Assembly: GCA_016177735.1 (NCBI GenBank)
Contig: JACOUS010000013.1
Coordinates: 1 to 64,000, forward strand
DNA from: Ignavibacteriales bacterium
Lineage (GTDB): Bacteria; Bacteroidota; Ignavibacteria; Ignavibacteriales; Melioribacteraceae
DNA: 64,000 bases
Reading direction: 5' to 3'
The notes under the pieces are model-generated. The model was not told the DNA's origin, did no database searches, and saw only the letters and a list, made by a program, of their open reading frames with translations. Made by a program: the position numbers and the translations under genes. Below, one piece after another: positions 4,809 to 62,468 of this stretch (positions are counted from its first letter, which is position 1; every line of letters begins with the position of its first letter).

Positions 4809-5711
4809 TCAATTGTTAAACGTGTACATGATCGAGATAATATGATAATCACCGAGACTGTAATTTACCGGTGTGTAAGCGTAATCAAGATTTATATTTT
4901 TCCACAGCACACCGAAACCGGCGCTCAAATTTTTTGAATCGTAGCCGGTAACATAACCGCCGCGCAGTGAAAATATATTATTGTATGTTACTTCCGCACC
5001 GATATGAAAATGTGTATCGTCCGTATCGGTATATTTCTGCAAGCCGCCGATTGCAATGACATTAAATTTACTCTCCGGCATTTCAAATTTGTATTCGGCG
5101 CCAAGCCTCAAATCAGCCGGAAGTTTTGTCGCTTCGTTTCTCAAATTATTCATCGAGCCGAAATTTCTAATTGAAGCACCGACTGAAAGATTTTCAATAA
5201 CATTTTTATATGACGCACCGATATCAAAACCGAGCCCGGTTGCATCATCCGAAAAAATATTTTCATAAAGATATTTGATTGTACCGCCGGCAAAAATATT
5301 TTCGGAAATATTAAACCCGGTTGAAAGGCTTGCATAAAAATAATGTGCACCAAAAGTTGATTCTGCATCGCCCGGTTTTGTGCGTACTTCGATATCATTA
5401 ATTGTTGTTGTGTTTACACCGACTGCAAAAGGCAATCCGAACAATTGGAAACTTCCGGCAAACATTTCGGAAGCGAGCCCATCGAACAGACTATTGTGCG
5501 TAAACGATAATTGAGTTTTTTGATCAACTGCGAGCAAAGACGGATTATAATTGAGTGCTGTCAAATCATTAGCACCAATTACGCCGAGATCGCTCATCGC
5601 CACATTCCGCGCACCGAATCCGAGTTTCAAAAATGACAAACCTGATCTGCCGGCTGTCTGCGCGTTTGCAGAAATCGAAGCGACGATTAATAACAAAAAT
5701 ATTTTTTTCAT
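4809..5711 (-). CDS. PorV/PorQ family outer-membrane protein (copy 1)
   Basis: This 300-residue protein has a signal peptide (about residues 1-17, ending NAQ) and then the PorV/PorQ start LKLGFGARNVAMSDLGVIGA with the NYNPSLLA motif. The rest is alternating beta-strand sequence ending in a short aromatic strand, as expected for an outer-membrane barrel of the FadL/UPF0164 type. In T9SS, PorV shuttles cargo from the translocon to the attachment complex. It follows a second PorV/PorQ-like gene by four bases, so they are co-transcribed. Whether it is the general PorV or a dedicated paralogue for the neighbouring cargo cannot be decided from the window. Confidence 0.82.
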   Translation of the reverse strand: MKKIFLLLIVASISANAQTAGRSGLSFLKLGFGARNVAMSDLGVIGANDLTALNYNPSLLAVDQKTQLSFTHNSLFDGLASEMFAGSFQLFGLPFAVGVNTTTINDIEVRTKPGDAESTFGAHYFYASLSTGFNISENIFAGGTIKYLYENIFSDDATGLGFDIGASYKNVIENLSVGASIRNFGSMNNLRNEATKLPADLRLGAEYKFEMPESKFNVIAIGGLQKYTDTDDTHFHIGAEVTYNNIFSLRGGYVTGYDSKNLSAGFGVLWKNINLDYAYTPVNYSLGDYHIISIMYTFNN

Positions 5712-5715
5712 AGAG

Positions 5716-6711
5716 TTAGAAGTTTATGTTTAATCCTATAATGTGTTGATCGCCGGATGAATACGGCTCGATTACAAATGCGTAATCAAATCCGAAACGG
5801 ATTGAATTCAATGAGTAAAAGTAAGAAAATCCGGCGGAAGGACGAACCGGTTCATCAGTGTTCGAAATATTGAAGCGATCCAAACCGGCACGCAAAAAAA
5901 GATCGGTGTAAATGTTGTACTCGCATCCGGCACGCAGATAATTTGTTCCGCCGTTACTGCTTTCAAATTCTACCGACGCTAAAATTTTGGGCTCGGTGAA
6001 TTTGTAAGCCGCACCAATCTTTTTCAGAGTTGGAAATTTTTCTTTTGTAACATTTCCCGATTGACCGTAAAGATTCCCGGTATCCCATTCGTATTTGCTG
6101 TTCAAATCGGAAATCATAAAAGATAAAGTGAGTGACTCGTTGAAAGAATAAAGTGCGCCAATATCGAAACCCAAGCCGGACGAAGTTAAATCTTCGTACA
6201 ATTTGTAGTAATAAAATTTGAACGCGATACCGATTGCAAGTTTTTCGGAGAAACGGTTTGATACTGCAACAAAAAATTGATTCTCACTCGTTGAGAGTTC
6301 GTTGTATTTTTTCCCATCGCCGTCACGTGCATCGATATTCGAAACTCCGGCATTGATTATTCCGACACTAATACCGGCAATCGATCTCGGTTTTACTATG
6401 CCGTCCGGTGTTTCAATTTTTCCGAATTCAAACTTGCGTGTGTAATTCAAAAAGTTGAGCGCTCTATCGAGTGTTAAAAAAGAATAAGAAGTTTGGAAAG
6501 AATTTCCGTCTTGAAAAGAAGCAAGCGCCGGATTGTAATATGAAACAAGCGAACCTTCTTTAATTGCAGACATTGCATTGCCCATTCCGATTCCTCGTGC
6601 GCCGAAACCGATTCTGCTGAATGCGCCGGGCATACTGCTGATTTTTACAAACTCAGGCTGTGCTGAAACCGACACAACAAACATCAACAACGATAAAAAT
6701 ATTTTTTTCAA
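5716..6711 (-). CDS. PorV/PorQ family outer-membrane protein (copy 2)
   Basis: The 331-residue protein has a signal peptide (MKKIFLSLLMFVVSVSAQ) and the family start FSRIGFGARGIGMGNAMSAI with YYNPALAS, followed by barrel-like beta strands up to the C-terminal aromatic strand GLNINF. It is related to, but clearly diverged from, the next gene (4809-5711), so the pair looks like an old duplication rather than a recent tandem copy. It sits 20 bases downstream of the Asp-box propeller gene, which has a FlgD-like C-terminal module and is a plausible cargo. The role as T9SS attachment or shuttle protein is inferred from family and context. Confidence 0.82.
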   Translation of the reverse strand: MKKIFLSLLMFVVSVSAQPEFVKISSMPGAFSRIGFGARGIGMGNAMSAIKEGSLVSYYNPALASFQDGNSFQTSYSFLTLDRALNFLNYTRKFEFGKIETPDGIVKPRSIAGISVGIINAGVSNIDARDGDGKKYNELSTSENQFFVAVSNRFSEKLAIGIAFKFYYYKLYEDLTSSGLGFDIGALYSFNESLTLSFMISDLNSKYEWDTGNLYGQSGNVTKEKFPTLKKIGAAYKFTEPKILASVEFESSNGGTNYLRAGCEYNIYTDLFLRAGLDRFNISNTDEPVRPSAGFSYFYSLNSIRFGFDYAFVIEPYSSGDQHIIGLNINF

Positions 6712-32097: not shown

Positions 32098-35000
32098 TTA
32101 TCTAACAACCGCCAGCTTTTGTACCGCAGTAATTATTTCACTCCCCTTTTTCAAAATTATTTTGTAAAGGTAAACACCGTTGGCAATCAAATCACCGTCT
32201 TCATCGCGACCATTCCAATAGATGCGGTTAAAATCATAATTCAGTTCGGATGAGCTTTTTGTTATTTCTTTTATCATCCGCCCGGCAAGTGTGAAGATTT
32301 TTATTTTCAATTCATCGGGAATTTGTGTTAGCTTAAAAGTAAAATATGTTTTGTTTGCAAAAGGATTAGGATAGTTATAAACATCCAGTAACTGCACATC
32401 GTTTGCAACGGAAAATGTTTTTGTTAACGTAACGTTTTCTAATTCGTTATTGTAAATATTTTTTGCAATGATTTTTAATTCGTGTGCGCCGTCTTCAAGT
32501 TCTGCATTATAAAGAATAATCACTTTCGGATTAGCCGGGGAAAAGCTCCAGCTAAGTTTTGCATTCTGGAAATAATCGATTCTAATATTATCAAGAAAAA
32601 TTTCAACGGCGGAAGTATCATTCACCGGCAGAATTGATTCATCTGAGACTTCAATTTTAATTGACGGATTTGGCGATATAAAATCCCCGTCAGAAATATC
32701 AACATCATCAAACTTTACATCCAGTGCGGGCAAAGACGAATCACGTTTGATAAATACATCCGCAGAGTAATAGTTGTTGTCTTCGTACCGTTCGTGGATT
32801 ATATTATCCGCGTCAATCACAATTCTGAATTGAGTATCATCGCTGTCATTGTTTGTATTAATCGGCACATCTATTTTTATTTTCATTTCCTTGCCAAGCG
32901 AGTCAATTGTTTGCGTTAAAATATTCTCGACAGAATAATCTTTTCTAACCGTTTCAACAGTTATCTTAAATTTTTCTGCTGAAGTTTCACCAACATTGTA
33001 AACATAAAACGAGAGCAGAGCAGTTTCGCCTTGCTGTAATGTGTCTTTATCAACTGCGACTGTTTGATAATTTATGCCAAGCTCTGCTAAACTGTTGTAA
33101 TCAACACTGATGGTTTGCAATGACGGAGTTTCGCCGGTTGGTGACGCCGTGTATTCGCAGAACAATTTTATTGTTGAATATTTTGGAGCATCAACAAAAC
33201 TCAAATCAATTTTCCCTCCGCTCAGCGAAAGATATTCTGTTGTATCAACATCTCCGGATATATTTTGCAGAAGCAATCTGTATTTAATCTCAGAGCCTGC
33301 CGGAGTGTTCTCTTTAATTTCTGCCGTGTTAAATTTTTCTGCCGGACCGATCGAAGGCGTTATGTAACAGCCGGTGTTGTTCATAATTTCAGGTTGTAAA
33401 TTCAATTCAACAGAGCCTTCATACGGTCTGCTGAAATTTTCAGGCACCGTGCCGGGAGCCGCGCCTTTCCTACCGATAATTGCCCACGAACCTCTGAATG
33501 TGAGACTGTCTATATATTTACTGCCGAGACTTTTAATTTTATTTCTTAATCCGGTAGAACCGACAGAACCTTCATCGGCAACTGCAATCAATACTAAAAA
33601 TTTTGCACTGAGTGTATCGAGAAAATGAATATACTCTGTTGTTGTGTTTTCACTGCTGTAAAAATCAAAAAGTTTGTACTGAACAAAATCATAAGTTTTG
33701 CTATCAAGCAAACAGACATGATGCCCGTTGATTGTATTTTCGGGAATCAAATTCTGATTGTTGATCGAAATGATTGCGGTTTTGCCGTCGTAGTATCCGG
33801 CAGAAAAAACTCTGATATCTATTTTCTTTTTGGCAAGTTGCAATGCGTTGCCCGGGTATTCAACATTTTGTTTTTCACCCGAGGCAAAACTTGTATTATC
33901 TGAAATAGAAAAATCTTTTTGACTGCCGACAACAAACGACTTAACAGCTCCATACTCACTTTGATCTTCCAATTTAGTTTTCAACCAGTAACGTTCACCC
34001 TTTTGTAAATCGCTTAAATCAATTTTTGTATAGAAAGTGTCTAAGCTGACATTAAGATTTGTGTGATCGGGAAAATCAGGAGTTCGGCTTAACAGAATAT
34101 TTATTTTCTCAGATTGTTGATCTTCAGAAGGACTCAAAATCGTCAGTTCATTTTCGATTTCATTCTCGACTTCATAATTCAAATTCGTACGCAGACTCGA
34201 GTTGTACACATTAAAAGTGAACCCGGTACTGTTATCGCTTTCGTATATCTCATCAATTGCATTTTCATTATCCAGATCAACAAAGAGCCGGTGTTCGCCG
34301 GGTCTTTCTTTGACCGGCAGCTTTACAATTATCGAATCACCGTTCAACGGAAGATTTTTTTCAATAGTTTTTTCGAAGAGGATAGAATTCAGATGAACAT
34401 CTTTAATATAAATTTTGAATCCACTCTTTTCGGTTTTCCCAAGATTCACAAATTTAATTTTTACTTCAACACTATCTTCACTGCTTGATGGTTTCTGTTC
34501 GCTCAAAACAATTCCGGTTGAATTGATATTCAAATTCGGTTTCTGTGGAATCGGAAGCCGAACGACCGGATCGCCAATCAAAGTATTCGTCAACGTGAAC
34601 AATTGATTTACAGTATTACTTCCATATTGTTTTATTAATTCTATTTTAGATCGATTCAAAGCCTCGCAAATATTGGTGACCCCTTTGTCCAAAATTTGCT
34701 CATAAAAAAGTTTCGGAGCCGTAATTGCGGTCGATAAAAAACCAAGCGAAGAATTTCCGACATATGCGATTGCTTGCCCGTTCTGCGATAACAAAAACAA
34801 TTGCGAAAAAGATTTGATATCCGGCTCGGCAAAACGCGCAGTTGAACATCCGAAATCCGTAATCAACGGATATCGGTTTGATTTGTTCATAAGCTGCGAA
34901 GGTTCGGTGATCGAGTTATCCCATGTTTGTGTTCCGCTGTGACCGAGATATGAAATAAAAACGCTTCCTTCATCAAGCGTTTGCTGAAATTGCTGCGGTG

Positions 35001-37398
35001 AATACGGACCAAAATTCGTAACCGGATTAACAGTTTTATAAAAATGATTAAACATCCCTCCGATTGGTTGAGGCGCAACATAATTTTGGATGATAAAATT
35101 ATTCACACTTTTAAACTGCGCAATTTGAGTTTCATCGTTACCTTTGCCGCCGGTGAAGAACAAAAATTTTTTATTCCATTCATCAAACAACCCGTTAATG
35201 TACTCTCTGTGCTTTGTGAAGTACCAATCGAATTCTTCAACTGTGTTAACGGGAACTCTGCCGATATTCATCTGCGGCATAAATGCACCGGTTGTATCCC
35301 ACGCAACGAACCAATTATCGCTTGCCGACGCACCGTACGAAGGGACATAATTAAAAGTCTGCGGTGCACCTTGATTGCGGTTTTTATTGCCGTGATAATC
35401 ATATGTTGCGGCGCCGATTAAACAAACATAATTAGGACGCGGGCTTTGCCAGTTTGTGTAAGTAGCTTTCAAAAAATCCTTAATCGGTTCCGCACTAAAA
35501 GTTCCGTATGCAAATTCATCGTAAATATCGTCAACATCGATTACTTTTGTTTTCAACCCGTAGCTCGCAGAAATAAATTGCGAATACTCGTTAACTTTAT
35601 CCATAAATTTTTTATTCGTGATTGCAATGTAATCGGTATTATTGGCTGAACTTCGCAGATTAACAAATTGCTTCACATAAAAAAATTTGGGAGAGAGAAC
35701 TTTTGCAGACTCGGCAAAGAACAGTTTGCAATCGGCGCCGAGTGTATCTTTGAAAATAATTTCTTCGTTCAATCTCTGCACAGAATATTTTGCAGAGTTA
35801 TTTCCTAAAATCCACAAAGAGTAATCATCCGTTGTTACATCGCTGATTTCAATTTGATAAACATTCCTTCCGCTTAAAAACGTGAACGAAGCAGTGAGTC
35901 TTCCATTTTGCGGTTTGAGATAACGCGGATATTCAATTTCATACCAATCGACAGCACACGCATTTATCGCAGCAGCAGTCTGCATCGAATGCAGCTTAAT
36001 TGTGTTATTCCCGTCATTCAGCCAGTTGGAACTGATCTCTGCCTTCAACACTTTCTGTTGATATTTATCGATGTACGTGCGGTTATAAATTGCAGTATCG
36101 GAATTGATGCCGAGACCAACATAATGTGCGTTGTAAAAAATATCCGATGCAAAATCCATAAGCTTTGCGTAAAAATGTGCCGGTTTATTTTTATAAACAT
36201 CGCTCAGATGTATGTTAATATTTTTCGTCCCAACTCCAAGCTGGCTTTCAACCCACGTTTTGTTTCCAATCCAAAACGGGCTCTCACGTTTAACAATATC
36301 AGCCATTGAAAAATCAAACCAGTTATCCGTCTCGAGATGCACAACTTCATTGTAATAATCAATTACACCGGCAGAGTTAGATTGCGTGTTATCACTTCTC
36401 TGCATAACTCTTTCACCATCTGCGCCGCCCCACGCCAGCCAATAAATTGTTGTATCGGAATAAAGATTTAAATATTCGTTGTAAGGCTCGTCGAAATTAT
36501 TTTCTTCTCTGTGCTTGCCGCCCATATTCCGCAGACCGATGAATTCGATAAAATCATTTTCATCAAAACTTTCGTCCGTTTCACCTTCAACAAAAATCGG
36601 GATCTCGCTGCCTCGCAAAAACATTTTAAATGTCCTCGGGTCAATTATATTAACTCCAATGCCAAGATTCAGCAAATCATTTTTTGTAATTCTGTAAATG
36701 CCGTCCCGTGCTGTTCCTATTTTCAAATATGTTTTTGAATAATCGATCCATGAATCCGTCGGCAGAATATCAAAAGATTCTTTTGCTGAAAACTTTTCGG
36801 CAAAAGAAGAATTGACGACAAAATCATTTTTATTTTTTGCCGCTGTCAACAAATTTAATTCTGGCAGTGGTATATCGAACAATAATTCGACAAGAATTTT
36901 TTTAGGAATAGAGATAAAACCTTTGGAGCGGTCATAAACGAACAACGGCACGGAGATGTGCAAACAATAATTTCTGTTTACCCACAAAAAACCTTTTACA
37001 AAAAATTTTTCTTCGGTGGAGAGTTTTACTTCAGAAACTTCAACATAAGATAAAGTTGAATCGCTTGTTCGAATTACACTCGGATTTATTTGCGGATGTG
37101 CGTTAAGTATTTCACTTTCAGTCACAGATATTTTTACGGTAGGATTGCTATTCTGTGGAACAGCGATAAAAAAATCTTTGTACGGTATGTTAAGCTGCCC
37201 GGTTTTGGATTCATCAAAAACATTTTGCATGTAAATATATTTTACGCCGTTCACATCTTTCAATTCGTAATCAAGTTTTCCCGGTTCGATGGTGAGGCGG
37301 TAAATATTTTTTTTAATTTCCTCGTGGACTAATTTGAATTGCGCAGCAATCTTTAGTTGAAGAATCAAAAGAAGAATAACTATATTGAATACACGCAT
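32098..37398 (-). CDS. Giant C25 (gingipain/PorU-like) cysteine peptidase with CARDB-like domains and C-terminal sorting module
   Basis: The 1766-residue protein has a signal peptide, a beta-rich N-terminal region with a PorU-type module (TYLKIGTARDGIYRITKNDL, near residue 230), and a C25 caspase-like domain (about 590-960) with His820 in YLGHSGTQTW and Cys851 in DFGCSTARF as the catalytic dyad. After it come two CARDB-like Ig domains (about 965-1090 and 1455-1575; NENAIDEIYESDNSTGF and DNIIHERYEDNNYYS) and a C-terminal FlgD-like domain with YNYPNPFANKTYF and WNGRDEDGDLIANGVYLYK. C25 members in Bacteroidota include PorU, the T9SS sortase that cuts and attaches cargo, and secreted proteases. 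It is much longer than typical PorU, so this may be a fusion-like relative or a surface protease. Located convergently to the toxin gene. Confidence 0.85.
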   Translation of the reverse strand: MRVFNIVILLLILQLKIAAQFKLVHEEIKKNIYRLTIEPGKLDYELKDVNGVKYIYMQNVFDESKTGQLNIPYKDFFIAVPQNSNPTVKISVTESEILNAHPQINPSVIRTSDSTLSYVEVSEVKLSTEEKFFVKGFLWVNRNYCLHISVPLFVYDRSKGFISIPKKILVELLFDIPLPELNLLTAAKNKNDFVVNSSFAEKFSAKESFDILPTDSWIDYSKTYLKIGTARDGIYRITKNDLLNLGIGVNIIDPRTFKMFLRGSEIPIFVEGETDESFDENDFIEFIGLRNMGGKHREENNFDEPYNEYLNLYSDTTIYWLAWGGADGERVMQRSDNTQSNSAGVIDYYNEVVHLETDNWFDFSMADIVKRESPFWIGNKTWVESQLGVGTKNINIHLSDVYKNKPAHFYAKLMDFASDIFYNAHYVGLGINSDTAIYNRTYIDKYQQKVLKAEISSNWLNDGNNTIKLHSMQTAAAINACAVDWYEIEYPRYLKPQNGRLTASFTFLSGRNVYQIEISDVTTDDYSLWILGNNSAKYSVQRLNEEIIFKDTLGADCKLFFAESAKVLSPKFFYVKQFVNLRSSANNTDYIAITNKKFMDKVNEYSQFISASYGLKTKVIDVDDIYDEFAYGTFSAEPIKDFLKATYTNWQSPRPNYVCLIGAATYDYHGNKNRNQGAPQTFNYVPSYGASASDNWFVAWDTTGAFMPQMNIGRVPVNTVEEFDWYFTKHREYINGLFDEWNKKFLFFTGGKGNDETQIAQFKSVNNFIIQNYVAPQPIGGMFNHFYKTVNPVTNFGPYSPQQFQQTLDEGSVFISYLGHSGTQTWDNSITEPSQLMNKSNRYPLITDFGCSTARFAEPDIKSFSQLFLLSQNGQAIAYVGNSSLGFLSTAITAPKLFYEQILDKGVTNICEALNRSKIELIKQYGSNTVNQLFTLTNTLIGDPVVRLPIPQKPNLNINSTGIVLSEQKPSSSEDSVEVKIKFVNLGKTEKSGFKIYIKDVHLNSILFEKTIEKNLPLNGDSIIVKLPVKERPGEHRLFVDLDNENAIDEIYESDNSTGFTFNVYNSSLRTNLNYEVENEIENELTILSPSEDQQSEKINILLSRTPDFPDHTNLNVSLDTFYTKIDLSDLQKGERYWLKTKLEDQSEYGAVKSFVVGSQKDFSISDNTSFASGEKQNVEYPGNALQLAKKKIDIRVFSAGYYDGKTAIISINNQNLIPENTINGHHVCLLDSKTYDFVQYKLFDFYSSENTTTEYIHFLDTLSAKFLVLIAVADEGSVGSTGLRNKIKSLGSKYIDSLTFRGSWAIIGRKGAAPGTVPENFSRPYEGSVELNLQPEIMNNTGCYITPSIGPAEKFNTAEIKENTPAGSEIKYRLLLQNISGDVDTTEYLSLSGGKIDLSFVDAPKYSTIKLFCEYTASPTGETPSLQTISVDYNSLAELGINYQTVAVDKDTLQQGETALLSFYVYNVGETSAEKFKITVETVRKDYSVENILTQTIDSLGKEMKIKIDVPINTNNDSDDTQFRIVIDADNIIHERYEDNNYYSADVFIKRDSSLPALDVKFDDVDISDGDFISPNPSIKIEVSDESILPVNDTSAVEIFLDNIRIDYFQNAKLSWSFSPANPKVIILYNAELEDGAHELKIIAKNIYNNELENVTLTKTFSVANDVQLLDVYNYPNPFANKTYFTFKLTQIPDELKIKIFTLAGRMIKEITKSSSELNYDFNRIYWNGRDEDGDLIANGVYLYKIILKKGSEIITAVQKLAVVR

Positions 37399-55664: not shown

Positions 55665-57680
55665 ATGCAAAAGAGACTTACAACATTAGCTCTTGCAATA
55701 TTTCTTTTTGCCGGAGTTGTATTTTCTCAAACCATGAAAGTAACAACTTACGGTGTGTCTCCAAGAGAAGCCGGGATTAGCACAACTGATATTTTTACCT
55801 CTGCCTACAACGGCTTAACAAATGTCGGTGCCGGTACAAAAATGTATCTTCAAGTAAAGTTGACCGGTGGAAGATTGGACAATCCGACTTTCGCAACAAC
55901 AGAAAGACCATCAGGTTCAAGCCCCAAATTCGGTGGTACACCTTTCGAAGCAGATACGTCAACAGCCATTACATCTTTCTTACCGGACAAACCGGGGAAA
56001 TATGTTGTTCAAGTTACCGATGGACCATACACTGCAACGATTACAATTAATGCCGCTAAATATATCGGCGTTTTAAACACCGTTAATAATGTAAACTGCC
56101 AAACATGCCATCCGAGTTATGTTGAAAAATGGCAGCAGACCGGACATGCAACAATGTTAGTCCGCGGTTTGGAAGGTACACTTAGTAGTCATTACGGTGG
56201 AAGCTGTATTTCATGCCATACAACCGGGTACAATGCAGACACGACAGCGGTTAACGATGGTTTCGATGATCTAACTTTCACATTTCCTACTACATTAACA
56301 ACCGGAACTTACCAAAGCATGGTAGATCAATTTCCGGATGCGATGCAAAAAGCAAACATCCAGTGCGAAGCGTGCCATGGACCGGCAAGCGGTCACTTCG
56401 GCGAAACAAAAGATTCAAGAATTCAAGTTACTTATGATGCGGCAAACTGCGCTATTTGTCATGACGACGGACATTACCATGTTTATCCGGAACAATGGGA
56501 TTATTCACGACATGCTGTTGCAACAAATTATCCGACCGGACCCGGACGTGAAAGCTGCGTACGCTGCCATACAGCAAAAGGTTTCGCACAATATGCAAAA
56601 GGCGTTTCAACAACCGATCCGTATTTTGATCCATCGTATCAACCGATTACTTGCGCCGGATGCCACGATCCACATGATGTAACAAATCCAAATCAAATAA
56701 GAAAGATGACAGCAAAATTAGCAAGCGGCGTTGAGATTACAGACGGCGGAAAAGGTTTGCTTTGTATGAATTGCCATCAAAGCCGCACTAATGCTAATGA
56801 TGCTTATGTAGCTCCGAAAACTTCTTATTCGCGTTTCGGTACACACTATTCCGATCCGGCTGATATTATCAACGGACAAAATGTTTACACGTTTGGTGCA
56901 ACACTTGGTTTTACAGATCATATTAAAATTACAGAGAACGGATGCGTTACTTGCCATATGGCGGCATACACTGTCGATCCTGATCTCAAGATTCAATTAG
57001 CCGGCAAACATACATTCTCGATGAGCACTCCGGGCGGACAAGATAATATGCAAGCTTGTGCAGCATGCCATGGCAGTTCGTTGGGTGCTTCTTTTGATGA
57101 TGTGAGATATTTCCCGGGAGGCAGAGGCGATCTTGATCAAGACGGAACAATCGAAGGAATACAAGCTGAAATTCACGGCTTACTTGATGCTTGCGCTGTT
57201 CTTCTTCCGTTAAAGAATCCGGCTGATTGGGCACACGAAGACCCGACATCTGCATGGACAAAAACACAATTGATGGCATTCTACAACATGAAAGCTATCT
57301 ATTATGACGGCAGTTACGGTATTCACAATCCGGAATTCATCTACACACTTTTAATTGAATCGTATCGTCAAATAGGCGGTGTTGTTGGTGTTGAAGATGA
57401 ATTGCAAACAGTGCCGGCTGAATATGCTCTGTTTAACAACTATCCGAATCCGTTTAACCCGTCAACCAACATCCGTTTTGCATTGCCAAAAACTTCTAAC
57501 GTTAAATTGACTGTTTATGATGCAATCGGAAGAGAAGTGAGAACGTTGGTAAATAACGAATTAACAGCCGGAACGCATACGATTGCATTCAATGCAAGTA
57601 ATCTGGCATCCGGTGTTTATCTCTATAAAATAGAGGCTGGTGATTTTGTTAAAGTAAATAAAATGTTGTTGATTAAATAA
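55665..57680 (+). CDS. Nine-haem c-type cytochrome with T9SS sorting domain
   Basis: The 671-residue protein has a signal peptide (ending VFSQ), an Ig-like N-terminal domain (about 25-140), a cytochrome region with nine CxxCH motifs between residues 145 and about 470 (CQTCH, CISCH, CEACH, CAICH, CVRCH, CAGCH, CMNCH, CVTCH, CAACH) and a C-terminal T9SS type A sorting domain (about 588-671) with NNYPNPFNPSTNIRFALPK and a SGVYLYKIEAGD...KMLLIK end. It should receive haem in the periplasm and then cross the outer membrane by T9SS. A strong GGGAGGAG precedes the ATG. A role as surface electron carrier is inferred. Confidence 0.93.
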   Translation: MQKRLTTLALAIFLFAGVVFSQTMKVTTYGVSPREAGISTTDIFTSAYNGLTNVGAGTKMYLQVKLTGGRLDNPTFATTERPSGSSPKFGGTPFEADTSTAITSFLPDKPGKYVVQVTDGPYTATITINAAKYIGVLNTVNNVNCQTCHPSYVEKWQQTGHATMLVRGLEGTLSSHYGGSCISCHTTGYNADTTAVNDGFDDLTFTFPTTLTTGTYQSMVDQFPDAMQKANIQCEACHGPASGHFGETKDSRIQVTYDAANCAICHDDGHYHVYPEQWDYSRHAVATNYPTGPGRESCVRCHTAKGFAQYAKGVSTTDPYFDPSYQPITCAGCHDPHDVTNPNQIRKMTAKLASGVEITDGGKGLLCMNCHQSRTNANDAYVAPKTSYSRFGTHYSDPADIINGQNVYTFGATLGFTDHIKITENGCVTCHMAAYTVDPDLKIQLAGKHTFSMSTPGGQDNMQACAACHGSSLGASFDDVRYFPGGRGDLDQDGTIEGIQAEIHGLLDACAVLLPLKNPADWAHEDPTSAWTKTQLMAFYNMKAIYYDGSYGIHNPEFIYTLLIESYRQIGGVVGVEDELQTVPAEYALFNNYPNPFNPSTNIRFALPKTSNVKLTVYDAIGREVRTLVNNELTAGTHTIAFNASNLASGVYLYKIEAGDFVKVNKMLLIK

Positions 57681-59465: not shown

Positions 59466-60929
59466 TCAAAAATTTTTCTTCTTTTCAATTTTTCTTATGT
59501 ACAAAAAAATTGTGAACGCCAAACCGGAGATTATCAGCACTGAAACTCCGAGTCCATAACGCCGGAAATAATAATCGTTAATCGCTTTTTTTGATTCATC
59601 GATAACCGAAGATGCGACCGTCAATCCTTTTTGCTCAACAACCTCTTTAAATTTTTCGATATCAAACGAGTGAATTATGGTGCGTGTTTCTTGTTTGGCT
59701 TGATTTGCATCGCGGAGTTTAAATTTTGCTTCGCTGATCTCCATTCCCTTTTGCTCGGCTTCATCAATAAGTTTTTTTGCATAAAGTATTTGCACATCCA
59801 AACTATCAATCAACTTTCTCATCAGTCGTGCCGATTTAAATCCTTCTGCGTTCAAATTTTCTTTGTGGCACTTGCCGCAAATTTCATTCTTCCCCACTCC
59901 GAGCAATTCGTTTGTCGCGGTTAAAATATGATGATTGCCGTGACAAGTTTCGCACTCGGGATAATTTTTCTCATCGAATGCCTTTTTGTGCGGACTGCCC
60001 GAGAACAATTCCGCATTAAGCGCATGGCATGTGCCGCAGACTTTTGAAATCGATTCTACACCCGGAGGAGTTGCCGCATGATTTCCATGACAACTATTGC
60101 ACGCCGGTGCGTTGAGATCATTCTTTTCAAGTAATGCTATGCCGTGCACACCCGATGAAAATTTTTTGTACTGATCCGTAGGAATTTTGTATCCGCTCAT
60201 ATATTCCGAATTGCTGTGACAGTTCGAACAAGTTTTCGGAATGTTCGAAGGATAAACTTTTGATTTCACATCGGAAGCTTTTCTTATTTCGTGAGAGCCG
60301 TGGCAATCCGAACAATCTGCCGTTTTTGTATCCCCTCTTTCATTTTTCAAACCGTGAACGCTCGTTCGATATTTTTGAAACTGATCAACCGGAAGCGAAG
60401 GATTGTACGACCTCATATAAACAGCGTTGTTGTGGCACTTAGCACACAGCGCCGGAAGATTCAAAGAATAAGCCGGCGATGACGGATTTTTTACCGATAC
60501 AATTCCATGCGCATTATGGCATGTTGTGCATTGAAGAATATGCGAGCTGCCTGAAATAGATTTTTGCCAGTGAACACTGTTTTGAATAAGCGATTGCTGA
60601 TTAACCGGCAATGTTGAGTTGTATTTTTTCATCTGCTCTTTATTTGAATGGCAGTTTACACAGCGGTTGGAAATGTCATCACCTTTTGGAACACCGATAA
60701 ATCCTTCTTTTCCGCTCATCGCAATTTCCATATCGTCGGTTCTGCTGTTTCCGCCGTGGCATGCATTGCATGAAATATTTCTTTGGGAGTGAACATCATG
60801 TTTATACAATTCAGCAATCTCATCTCCGGTTGACTCGTGACAAATGAAACATTGATCATCATTTGTTTGCGCGTAAATAAAACTGCAGACGAATAACATT
60901 GCAGATAATATGTTCAACATTCCTTTCAT
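59466..60929 (-). CDS. Membrane-anchored eleven-haem cytochrome c
   Basis: The 487-residue protein has a signal peptide (ending IYAQ), eleven CxxCH motifs between residues 27 and 355 (CFICH, CNACH, CVNCH, CTTCH, CAKCH, CSDCH, CSNCH, CNSCH, CGTCH, CETCH, CGKCH), a helical stalk (about 365-460) and a C-terminal membrane helix (LGVSVLIISGLAFTIFLYI) with a short KKK-rich cytoplasmic tail. The start at 60929 (ATGA overlap with cytochrome b) is preferred to ATG 60938. Its place in the Rieske/cytochrome b operon suggests that it takes the place of cytochrome c1 as electron acceptor in a quinol-oxidising complex. That role is inferred from gene order. Confidence 0.92.
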   Translation of the reverse strand: MKGMLNILSAMLFVCSFIYAQTNDDQCFICHESTGDEIAELYKHDVHSQRNISCNACHGGNSRTDDMEIAMSGKEGFIGVPKGDDISNRCVNCHSNKEQMKKYNSTLPVNQQSLIQNSVHWQKSISGSSHILQCTTCHNAHGIVSVKNPSSPAYSLNLPALCAKCHNNAVYMRSYNPSLPVDQFQKYRTSVHGLKNERGDTKTADCSDCHGSHEIRKASDVKSKVYPSNIPKTCSNCHSNSEYMSGYKIPTDQYKKFSSGVHGIALLEKNDLNAPACNSCHGNHAATPPGVESISKVCGTCHALNAELFSGSPHKKAFDEKNYPECETCHGNHHILTATNELLGVGKNEICGKCHKENLNAEGFKSARLMRKLIDSLDVQILYAKKLIDEAEQKGMEISEAKFKLRDANQAKQETRTIIHSFDIEKFKEVVEQKGLTVASSVIDESKKAINDYYFRRYGLGVSVLIISGLAFTIFLYIRKIEKKKNF

Positions 60930-62005
60930 GAGATCCATCCGAGGATTGTTAATACGATTATAAAGATTACAGCAAATAGCCCGATATAATTCGTCAATCT
61001 ATTTTTTTGACCGCGCGAACTTTTCGTATCCCAAAAAGGAACCATCAGCCAGAGAAATCCGGCGGCAACAAAAAGAATAATGCCGAGCATCTCTCCTTCA
61101 ACAATCCAGATATTAGCCGGAAAGTATTTCAAAGTTTGGAACATGAACAAGAAATACCATTCGGGTTTAATTCCAGCCGGCGCCGGTGCAAACGGGTCTG
61201 CTTTGCGTCCCAATTCAGAAGGGAAAAAGACTGCAAGTACAGCAAGCAGATTTAATACCAAAAGCCAAAACAAAATATCCCGCAAAAAGAAATTTGGGAA
61301 GAACGGCATCTTGCTGATTTCATTTCCCGAATTATTTTCAAAATCAATCGGCTGGCTCATTCCTTGCCGCTGAATCAATAAAAGATGAATGATCAACAAA
61401 ATTGAAAAGAGAGCCGGAAACAACGCAACATGAAAACCAAACATTCTCGATAATGTAGCGCCGGTAACATCTTCGCCGCCCCTCATAAAAATTTTCAACT
61501 CCTCGCCGATGAACGGAATATCGCCGATTATATCCGAGCCTACTTTCGTTGCAAAAAATGCAAGCTCATTCCACGGCAGTAAATATCCGCTGAATCCGAA
61601 ACCTAACCCGAGCAACAGCATCAGCATTCCGGTAATCCATGTTATCTCTCGCGGCTTGCGGTAAGATTTTTCGAAGTAAACACTGAACATGTGTATGAAT
61701 GCAGAGAGAATAAATAAATTTGCAGACCATGTATGAATTGAACGAATCAACCAGCCGAAACTAACTTTTGACATGATGAATTGAATACTTTCGAACGCGA
61801 GATCGGCGCTTCCTTTGTAATAGAACAAAAGAAGTATGCCGGTAAAAACCTGAATGATGAAAAGAAAAAGCGTTACTCCGCCAAAGTAATACCAAACAGA
61901 ATGACGATGAACCGGGACGTATTTCTTCCCCATGAAATTAATCAAGTCTTGAAGCTGAACTCTTTGGTCAATCCATTCATAAATTTTTTGTAAGCGGACT
62001 TTCAT
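60926..62005 (-). CDS. Cytochrome b of a bc-type complex
   Basis: The 359-residue membrane protein combines the b6-like N-terminal half with the subunit-IV-like C-terminal half. Haem-ligand histidines are in SIHTWSANLFILSAFIHMF and FHVALFPALFSILLIIHLL, the second pair separated by 14 residues as in b6-type proteins. The quinol-site motif PEWY is present in GIKPEWYFLFMF. The Cys that holds haem c(i) in b6 proteins is replaced (WYYFGG). Together with the Rieske protein it should oxidise menaquinol. The start at ATG 62005 follows the Rieske stop by a few bases; two TTG codons lie directly before it. Confidence 0.92.
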   Translation of the reverse strand: MKVRLQKIYEWIDQRVQLQDLINFMGKKYVPVHRHSVWYYFGGVTLFLFIIQVFTGILLLFYYKGSADLAFESIQFIMSKVSFGWLIRSIHTWSANLFILSAFIHMFSVYFEKSYRKPREITWITGMLMLLLGLGFGFSGYLLPWNELAFFATKVGSDIIGDIPFIGEELKIFMRGGEDVTGATLSRMFGFHVALFPALFSILLIIHLLLIQRQGMSQPIDFENNSGNEISKMPFFPNFFLRDILFWLLVLNLLAVLAVFFPSELGRKADPFAPAPAGIKPEWYFLFMFQTLKYFPANIWIVEGEMLGIILFVAAGFLWLMVPFWDTKSSRGQKNRLTNYIGLFAVIFIIVLTILGWIS

Positions 62006-62012
62006 CAACAAC

Positions 62013-62468
62013 TCAGGTTAATTTTGAAATGTAAATTTCTTCTCCTTTCAGGATTACGCGGTACGGCTGTAAAGGCTTTGGAGGAGGTCCGGAAATATTA
62101 CGGCCTGTTAAATCATATTTGCCGTTGTGGCATGCACACCAAATAACCCCCATCTCTTTTTTGTATTGAACGGTGCAGTCGAGATGCGTACAAACCGCAT
62201 CGAATGCAAGCAGTTTGTCGTCCGCTGTTCTAATTAATATCACGGGTTTATTACCGAAGCGGATAATCTTGCCGCTTTCTTTTTCGATATCGGAAATTTT
62301 TCCGGCAGAAACGGAAGAGACTGCAACTTCATTTTGTTCGGGCGGTTTCAAATAAGAAATCAGCGGATACAACAGCGCCGCACAAAATCCGGTTATGCCG
62401 CCGGTTAGAAGATATTTAAGAAATTCTCTTCTGCCGTTCTTCTGTTGAAGAGAATCAACAGCTTCCAT
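62013..62468 (-). CDS. Rieske iron-sulfur protein
   Basis: The 151-residue protein starts with a Tat-like RREFLK motif and a membrane helix (about residues 18-40), followed by a Rieske domain with both ligand boxes, CTHLDC and CACHNGKYDLTG; the disulfide cysteines of classical Rieske proteins are visible. It holds a [2Fe-2S] cluster and takes one electron from quinol at the cytochrome b site. It is the first gene of the operon Rieske - cytochrome b - eleven-haem cytochrome. Confidence 0.94.
   Translation of the reverse strand: MEAVDSLQQKNGRREFLKYLLTGGITGFCAALLYPLISYLKPPEQNEVAVSSVSAGKISDIEKESGKIIRFGNKPVILIRTADDKLLAFDAVCTHLDCTVQYKKEMGVIWCACHNGKYDLTGRNISGPPPKPLQPYRVILKGEEIYISKLT

Follow-up and report, generated by a model that had tools for sequence, protein, structure and literature searches.

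A nine-haem OcwA-type cytochrome carrying a type IX secretion sorting domain in an Ignavibacteriales bacterium

Results

Structure of the gene and its protein

The window that we analyzed is the whole stretch of 64,000 nucleotides at the start of contig JACOUS010000013.1 from an Ignavibacteriales bacterium. Near its 3' end lies a gene for a 671-aa multihaem protein (Table 1). The original prediction had placed here a protein that begins with a signal-like segment, carries nine CxxCH motifs and ends in a sorting domain of the type IX secretion system (T9SS). The open reading frame, the motif count and the HMM searches bear out this description and its coordinates. The N-terminus, MQKRLTTLALAIFLFAGVVFSQ, is signal-peptide-like when the translation is inspected by eye. 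The nine motifs start at residues 145, 181, 234, 262, 298, 330, 367, 427 and 465, whereas 20,000 shuffles of the residues gave an average of 0.016 CxxCH per protein and never more than two.

Table 1. Parts of the nine-haem gene, in positions of the window.
Feature	Position	Strand	Evidence
Complete gene for the 671-aa nine-haem cytochrome (OcwA-type, with T9SS type A sorting domain)	55665..57680	+	Open reading frame, ATG start, family matches
Signal-peptide-like segment, residues 1-21	55665..55727	+	Translation by eye; helix at residues 2-19 in AF2 model
N-terminal beta-rich domain, residues 22-131, outside the OcwA match	55728..56057	+	AF2 strands
Haems 1-4, cytochrome c554-like: CQTCH 56097, CISCH 56205, CEACH 56364, CAICH 56448	56097..56462	+	Motifs; Pfam and PDB profile matches
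Haems 5-9, NrfA-like pentahaem part: CVRCH 56556, CAGCH 56652, CMNCH 56763, CVTCH 56943, CAACH 57057	56556..57071	+	OcwA i-Evalue 2.7e-16
C-terminal helices, residues 499-571: three longer and one short, where OcwA has its three-helix bundle	57159..57377	+	AF2 helices; OcwA alignment
T9SS type A sorting domain, residues 593-667	57441..57665	+	TIGR04183, PF18962

The AF2 model of the protein, computed from a 13-row alignment (A1), was poor overall (mean pLDDT of 55.5). Confidence per block ranged from 60 to 89 across residues 22-131, except for residues 31-50 (40-45), and from 68 to 85 across the C-terminal helices. The model suggests that the N-terminal beta-rich domain may be Ig-like.

Sorting domain and secretion machinery

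The end of the protein (residues 593-667 of 671) matched the type A sorting domain model TIGR04183 with 47.8 bits (cut-off 23), and PF18962 matched the same protein with 46.6 bits (cut-off 27). The absence of a domain recognizable by HMM had been named beforehand as grounds for abandoning the prediction; the domain scores above both curated cut-offs. Nine residues of this tag (P594, N595, P596, F597, N598, P599, K666, M667 and K671) show no variation across the 20 members that were aligned. We considered a chance fusion of the tag to a cytochrome and rejected it in view of the conservation across relatives.

T9SS type A cargo crosses the outer membrane as folded protein through SprA with PorV; PorU cleaves the tag, and the cargo is then attached to the surface or released. 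The genome to which the window belongs (3.87 Mb, 44 contigs, stated completeness of 99.99%) gave 101 matches to the sorting-domain model. It also encodes SprA (1042.7 bits across its frame), PorU (970.5 bits) and, immediately following PorU, PorV (320.5 bits), each above its curated cut-off, and 13 PorV-family matches exceeded the cut-off genome-wide. The GldL and GldM models (TIGR03513 and TIGR03517) matched nothing in this genome; no control genome matched in our first search, which is therefore no evidence of absence, and in the second search a single control genome gave a match, which was below the cut-off.

The window itself carries, on the reverse strand at 32098-37398 and 4809-6711, a 1766-aa PorU2-like protein with a sorting domain of its own and two PorV-family proteins. 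The PorU2-like protein scored 419.5 bits, below the curated cut-off of 450, and one of the two PorV-family proteins was above its cut-off.

Relatives of the haem core

Searching the PDB with the single sequence returned OcwA (6i5b) as the best match (E = 2.6e-9); antibody light chains also appeared in this search, were gone when a profile was used, and were discarded. With the 13-sequence profile A1, 6i5b again ranked first (E = 2.3e-26). The second match was 6qvm ('Multiheme cytochrome cf', E = 8.3e-19), which we take to be OmhA of Carboxydothermus ferrireducens (the string '6qvm' is absent from the text of the OmhA paper), and further matches included NrfA (E of about 4e-9), octahaem nitrite reductases and MccA. 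In the alignment to OcwA, eight of the nine haem motifs pair in order, while haem 2 falls unaligned between the aligned blocks and the block with haem 1 scores poorly (i-Evalue 1.4).

OcwA (TherJR_2595, PDB 6I5B) of Thermincola potens is described as a nonahaem surface terminal reductase for solid acceptors (PMC6703420). It consists of a c554-like tetrahaem part, then an NrfA-like pentahaem part and a C-terminal three-helix bundle; haems 1, 3, 4, 6, 7 and 8 are bis-His, haem 9 is His-Met and two haems are open (PMC6703420). The window protein resembles it in its nine haems, in the order of eight motifs, in eight aligned extra His or Met residues and in its C-terminal helices. In contrast to OcwA, which comes from a Gram-positive cell, the window protein adds the N-terminal beta-rich domain and the sorting domain, before which the OcwA match stops, and it is without OcwA's His-His at haem 2. 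An outer-surface type of cytochrome had been predicted, and the closest solved relative is of this type; the OcwA/NrfA/c554 lineage had been missed. According to Gavrilov and others, OcwA is the sole monoderm protein in a subclade of Gram-negative nonahaem cytochromes, and their account of this subclade names no sorting domain (PMC7829351).

OmhA, whose core is homologous to that of the window protein via 6qvm, differs in its eleven haems and in being Gram-positive, whereas the window protein has nine CxxCH motifs. It is presented as a surface-associated candidate for Fe(III) reduction; this relative of OcwA was loosely bound and washed off biogenic magnetite (PMC7829351). The likeness to NrfA (2j7a, 2vr0) covers the region of haems 5-9 and the helices. 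NrfA is a periplasmic protein with five haems; the window protein has nine haem motifs, and the genome has a separate NrfA.

A further match, to PF22113 (MtrC/MtrF domains II/IV; 66.9 bits, cut-off 30), recalls the MtrC/OmcA cytochromes, whose role in extracellular electron transfer at the surface the window protein might share by analogy. MtrC and OmcA are lipoproteins on the MtrAB conduit, with ten haems in two pentahaem domains. We dropped MtrC as a relative: the PDB profile ranks OcwA first, and the decahaem family model TIGR03507 gave no match up to E = 0.1. The window protein has nine motifs, not ten.

Conservation of the axial ligand residues

Eight residues (H161, H244, H283, H337, H394, M432, H449 and H554) are matched in OcwA by residues of the same type, and none of the eight varies among the 58 full-length sorting-domain proteins in the alignment (longer than 600 aa, with at least seven motifs and a 5' end that is not open). 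Six distal His and one Met fit the ligand count of OcwA, and their order suggests which haem each would serve. H394 aligns to the active-site His of OcwA at haem 5 and is found in every one of these 58 proteins. OcwA's His-His arrangement at haem 2 is not conserved, with H270 present in 7 of the 58 and H272 in 46. At haem 5 the window protein has His-Tyr where OcwA has His-His; the second position is Tyr in 29 of the 58 and His in 20. Because these two His-His arrangements are missing, we call the window protein OcwA-type by homology only, and the name makes no claim to the two open active sites of OcwA.

Distribution of the family

We searched 58 near-relative genomes. In 14 of them the best match was weaker than E = 1e-35, which indicates that the nonahaem protein is not universal; for those of the 14 that are among the matches listed, only the sorting-domain region is covered. 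The best-match loci of 30 of the 58 genomes (our own included; one locus, L050, has Ns near its start) all encode nine CxxCH motifs and a sorting-domain-like C-terminus, as judged by eye. In a wider homologue search, 25 of 80 loci were translated, and for the remaining 55 the match was confined to residues 543-671. Further proteins combining CxxCH motifs with a sorting domain, which the original prediction had proposed to look for in Ignavibacteria genomes, were found both there and beyond. In a plasmid collection, four records matched and none covered 80% of the query; the best rows covered 14-24%, near the sorting domain.

An orthologue with 68% identity is carried by Melioribacter roseus. 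This species is cultured and reduces Fe(III) (PMC3534657), and in a figure legend of that paper its carbohydrate-active enzymes are shown with sorting domains. The main text of a multi-omics paper on M. roseus (PMC5492636) contains neither 'multiheme' nor 'extracellular'.

We then sampled 395 genomes of the phylum and found at least 88 matches to the core (haems 4-9) in 65 of them (E = 1e-25), a lower bound since at most five candidates were scored per genome. One match (G216:C7) is truncated at the end of its contig and was left unclassified. Of the 87 proteins that could be classified, 67 carry a C-terminal sorting domain and 20 have a lipoprotein-like start; none is without both, so that one or the other persists in all classified members of the family. 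Sorting domains were called with a home-made model built from 28 domains of our own genome (E = 1e-4), on which the 67 tagged members score 82-119 bits; nine CxxCH motifs were counted by pattern in 54 of them. The 20 untagged proteins are complete and begin, by eye, with a run of hydrophobic residues up to a Cys, followed by a GPxG-like motif or GPxG-rich linker; a crude lipoprotein pattern caught 13 of these 20. These lipoprotein-like Bacteroidota relatives (L095, L116, L122 and L134 among those seen; 20 sampled) share the haems 4-9 core, with the ligands kept in 20 of 20. Unlike the window protein, they possess five or six CxxCH motifs (ten proteins each), no sorting domain and a lipoprotein-like start. 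Three such relatives lie close together in a single genome (G200:C15:18226-25194).

A tree of 85 core sequences (65 tagged and 20 lipoprotein-like, leaving out two tagged rows open at the 5' end and the contig-cut G216:C7) has one change between the two anchors (SH-aLRT 96). This suggests that the swap was one old event, with no repeated convergence. SprA was found in 65 of 65 core-bearing genomes versus 303 of 395 in the whole sample (5e-9 by chance), an association confounded by kinship: 19 of the 20 SprA-less genomes that are listed belong to one family, and a further 72 SprA-less genomes lie outside this listing.

Gene neighborhood and other cytochromes of the genome

The neighbors of the nine-haem gene are a gene that we take to be cysteinyl-tRNA-synthetase-like, a gene for a DUF2339 protein, and genes for an 11-CxxCH protein, a cytochrome b and a Rieske protein. 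Across 57 loci (with unequal flanks of 3 or 6 kb), the two commonest neighbor families, one of them cysteinyl-tRNA-synthetase-like, occur in 16 of 57 each; another multihaem family adjoins in 8 of 57, and there is no constant partner. In the window, the Rieske protein, the cytochrome b and the 11-CxxCH cytochrome, the latter with a C-terminal hydrophobic stretch, lie in a row on the reverse strand (59466-62468). They would make a plausible quinol-oxidizing unit, and possibly a partner of the nine-haem protein. An 11-CxxCH protein in the same cluster of families also lies near the orthologue in a genome of the same genus (G001).

The stretches of our genome that were examined hold 14 proteins with four or more CxxCH motifs, and just two of these are tagged, the nine-haem protein and P0002, which suggests that the tag is selective; the inventory came from one family search (PF14522) and is a lower bound. 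P0002 (contig C15, 2673-4211 of locus L173, forward strand) is a 512-aa octahaem protein with a sorting domain. It was found in 3 of the 58 near relatives at E = 1e-20, our own included, and the other two proteins have a sorting-domain-like end by eye; we rejected P0002 as a general companion of the nine-haem protein, since only these three genomes have it. P0003 (contig C23, 4442-5560 of locus L175, reverse strand) is split-Soret-like (147.6 bits, below the curated cut-off of 400), has two CxxCH motifs and a sorting domain (35.6 bits, cut-off 23), and by eye starts with an RK-type Tat-like segment.

No pair of a porin and a periplasmic cytochrome was found at the locus of the nine-haem gene. 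On contig C15 (locus L174, 3652-10423, reverse strand) there is a cluster of proteins with 16 CxxCH motifs and cytochrome b, with four motifs, of 421 aa, with 14 motifs and with seven motifs (lipoprotein-like), and beside it lies a 13-CxxCH protein with HmcB-like and HybB/HmcC-like genes. The 421-aa protein has no family match and is probably a beta-barrel. In its make-up the cluster resembles a porin-cytochrome conduit. It could supply electrons to an exported cytochrome, which would still depend on a conduit of some kind. A CcsB-like c-type cytochrome maturation protein is also present at L174 (105.1 bits, below the cut-off of 187.6). Porin-cytochrome clusters were reported earlier for Ignavibacteria (PMC7399161). 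The predicted contrast between the nine-haem protein and porin-cytochrome conduits is not exclusive, because the same genome has the porin-cytochrome-like L174. The genome also has a separate NrfA/NrfH and an octahaem protein of the tetrathionate-reductase family, which indicates that periplasmic nitrite reduction is independent of the nine-haem protein.

Discussion

The gene structure, the tag, SprA, PorU and PorV, the kinship to OcwA and the conserved ligand residues were computed directly, and they lead us to favor, with moderate confidence, the reading that a Gram-negative cell of the Ignavibacteria type exports an OcwA-type nonahaem terminal reductase by T9SS and then holds it at the surface or releases it. 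In this scheme, the protein would be exported by Sec and lose its signal segment. Haem attachment at CxxCH in the periplasm is established, and the nine c-type haems would presumably be attached there. The tag and the machinery present in the genome suggest that the C-terminal sorting domain would then be recognized and the folded holo-protein moved through SprA with PorV, after which PorU would cut the tag and the cytochrome would be fixed to the surface or released. By homology to OcwA and OmhA, electrons may pass from periplasmic and porin-bound cytochromes to the nine-haem wire and from there to Fe(III), to shuttles or to further acceptors outside the cell.

It is possible, if unlikely, that the exported cytochrome acts on a soluble oxyanion and not on solids: as an extracellular, detoxifying catalyst it would reduce nitrite, hydroxylamine or a sulfur compound. 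The core belongs to the NrfA/c554/MccA lineage, chains of both NrfA and MccA are among the profile matches, and the residue at the position of the active-site His at haem 5 of OcwA, H394, is invariant. OcwA itself reduces nitrite and hydroxylamine slowly, but its nitrite turnover is just one per minute (PMC6703420). Moreover, the genome already has NrfA, NrfH and the octahaem tetrathionate-reductase-family protein, and export would presumably bring little gain when a soluble acceptor is able to enter the periplasm.

A row of nine haems can form a wire, and sorting-domain cargo may be released from the cell. An anchored or released cytochrome that stores or relays electrons, as a coat, a wire or an intercellular shuttle, could therefore be envisaged in place of a terminal reductase, and the loose binding of OmhA, which washed off biogenic magnetite (PMC7829351), would agree with it. 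We regard this as improbable: similarity points to terminal reductases, and none of the 21 distinct sequences at E ≤ 0.001 is named as one of the filament-forming cytochromes (OmcS, OmcE or OmcZ). That the tag is non-functional here and the cytochrome stays in the periplasm appears very improbable. The GldL and GldM models matched nothing in the genome, with controls silent or below the cut-off, which would be in line with such an idle tag, but the tag is kept in 67 of the 87 classifiable members, with a lipoprotein-like start in the other 20, and its nine residues are invariant in all 20 aligned members.

T9SS is known for the export of enzymes, adhesins and virulence proteins. A full-text search, with most subscription journals outside its scope and many of the hits judged by title and the opening of the abstract, found no work that joins T9SS with multihaem cytochromes. 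T9SS export and OcwA-type cytochromes are thus each known, and their union is apparently undescribed. Extending the preferred reading of a T9SS-exported terminal reductase, we think it somewhat likely that T9SS of Bacteroidota, above all of Ignavibacteria and their kin, carries a multihaem terminal reductase, already folded and loaded with haem, across the outer membrane, as a separate general solution beside porin-bound lipoprotein cytochromes; at least two further tagged haem proteins (the octahaem and the split-Soret-like dihaem protein) occur in the same genome.

In short, the nine-haem protein would work like OcwA and travel like T9SS cargo, a reading that is directly testable in a cultured organism, M. 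roseus. If it is true, a holo-cytochrome can pass the T9SS translocon, and a Gram-positive surface reductase, OcwA, is linked with a Gram-negative lineage that brings its protein out of the cell by another route. T9SS would then also build the respiratory surface of iron-reducing Bacteroidota.
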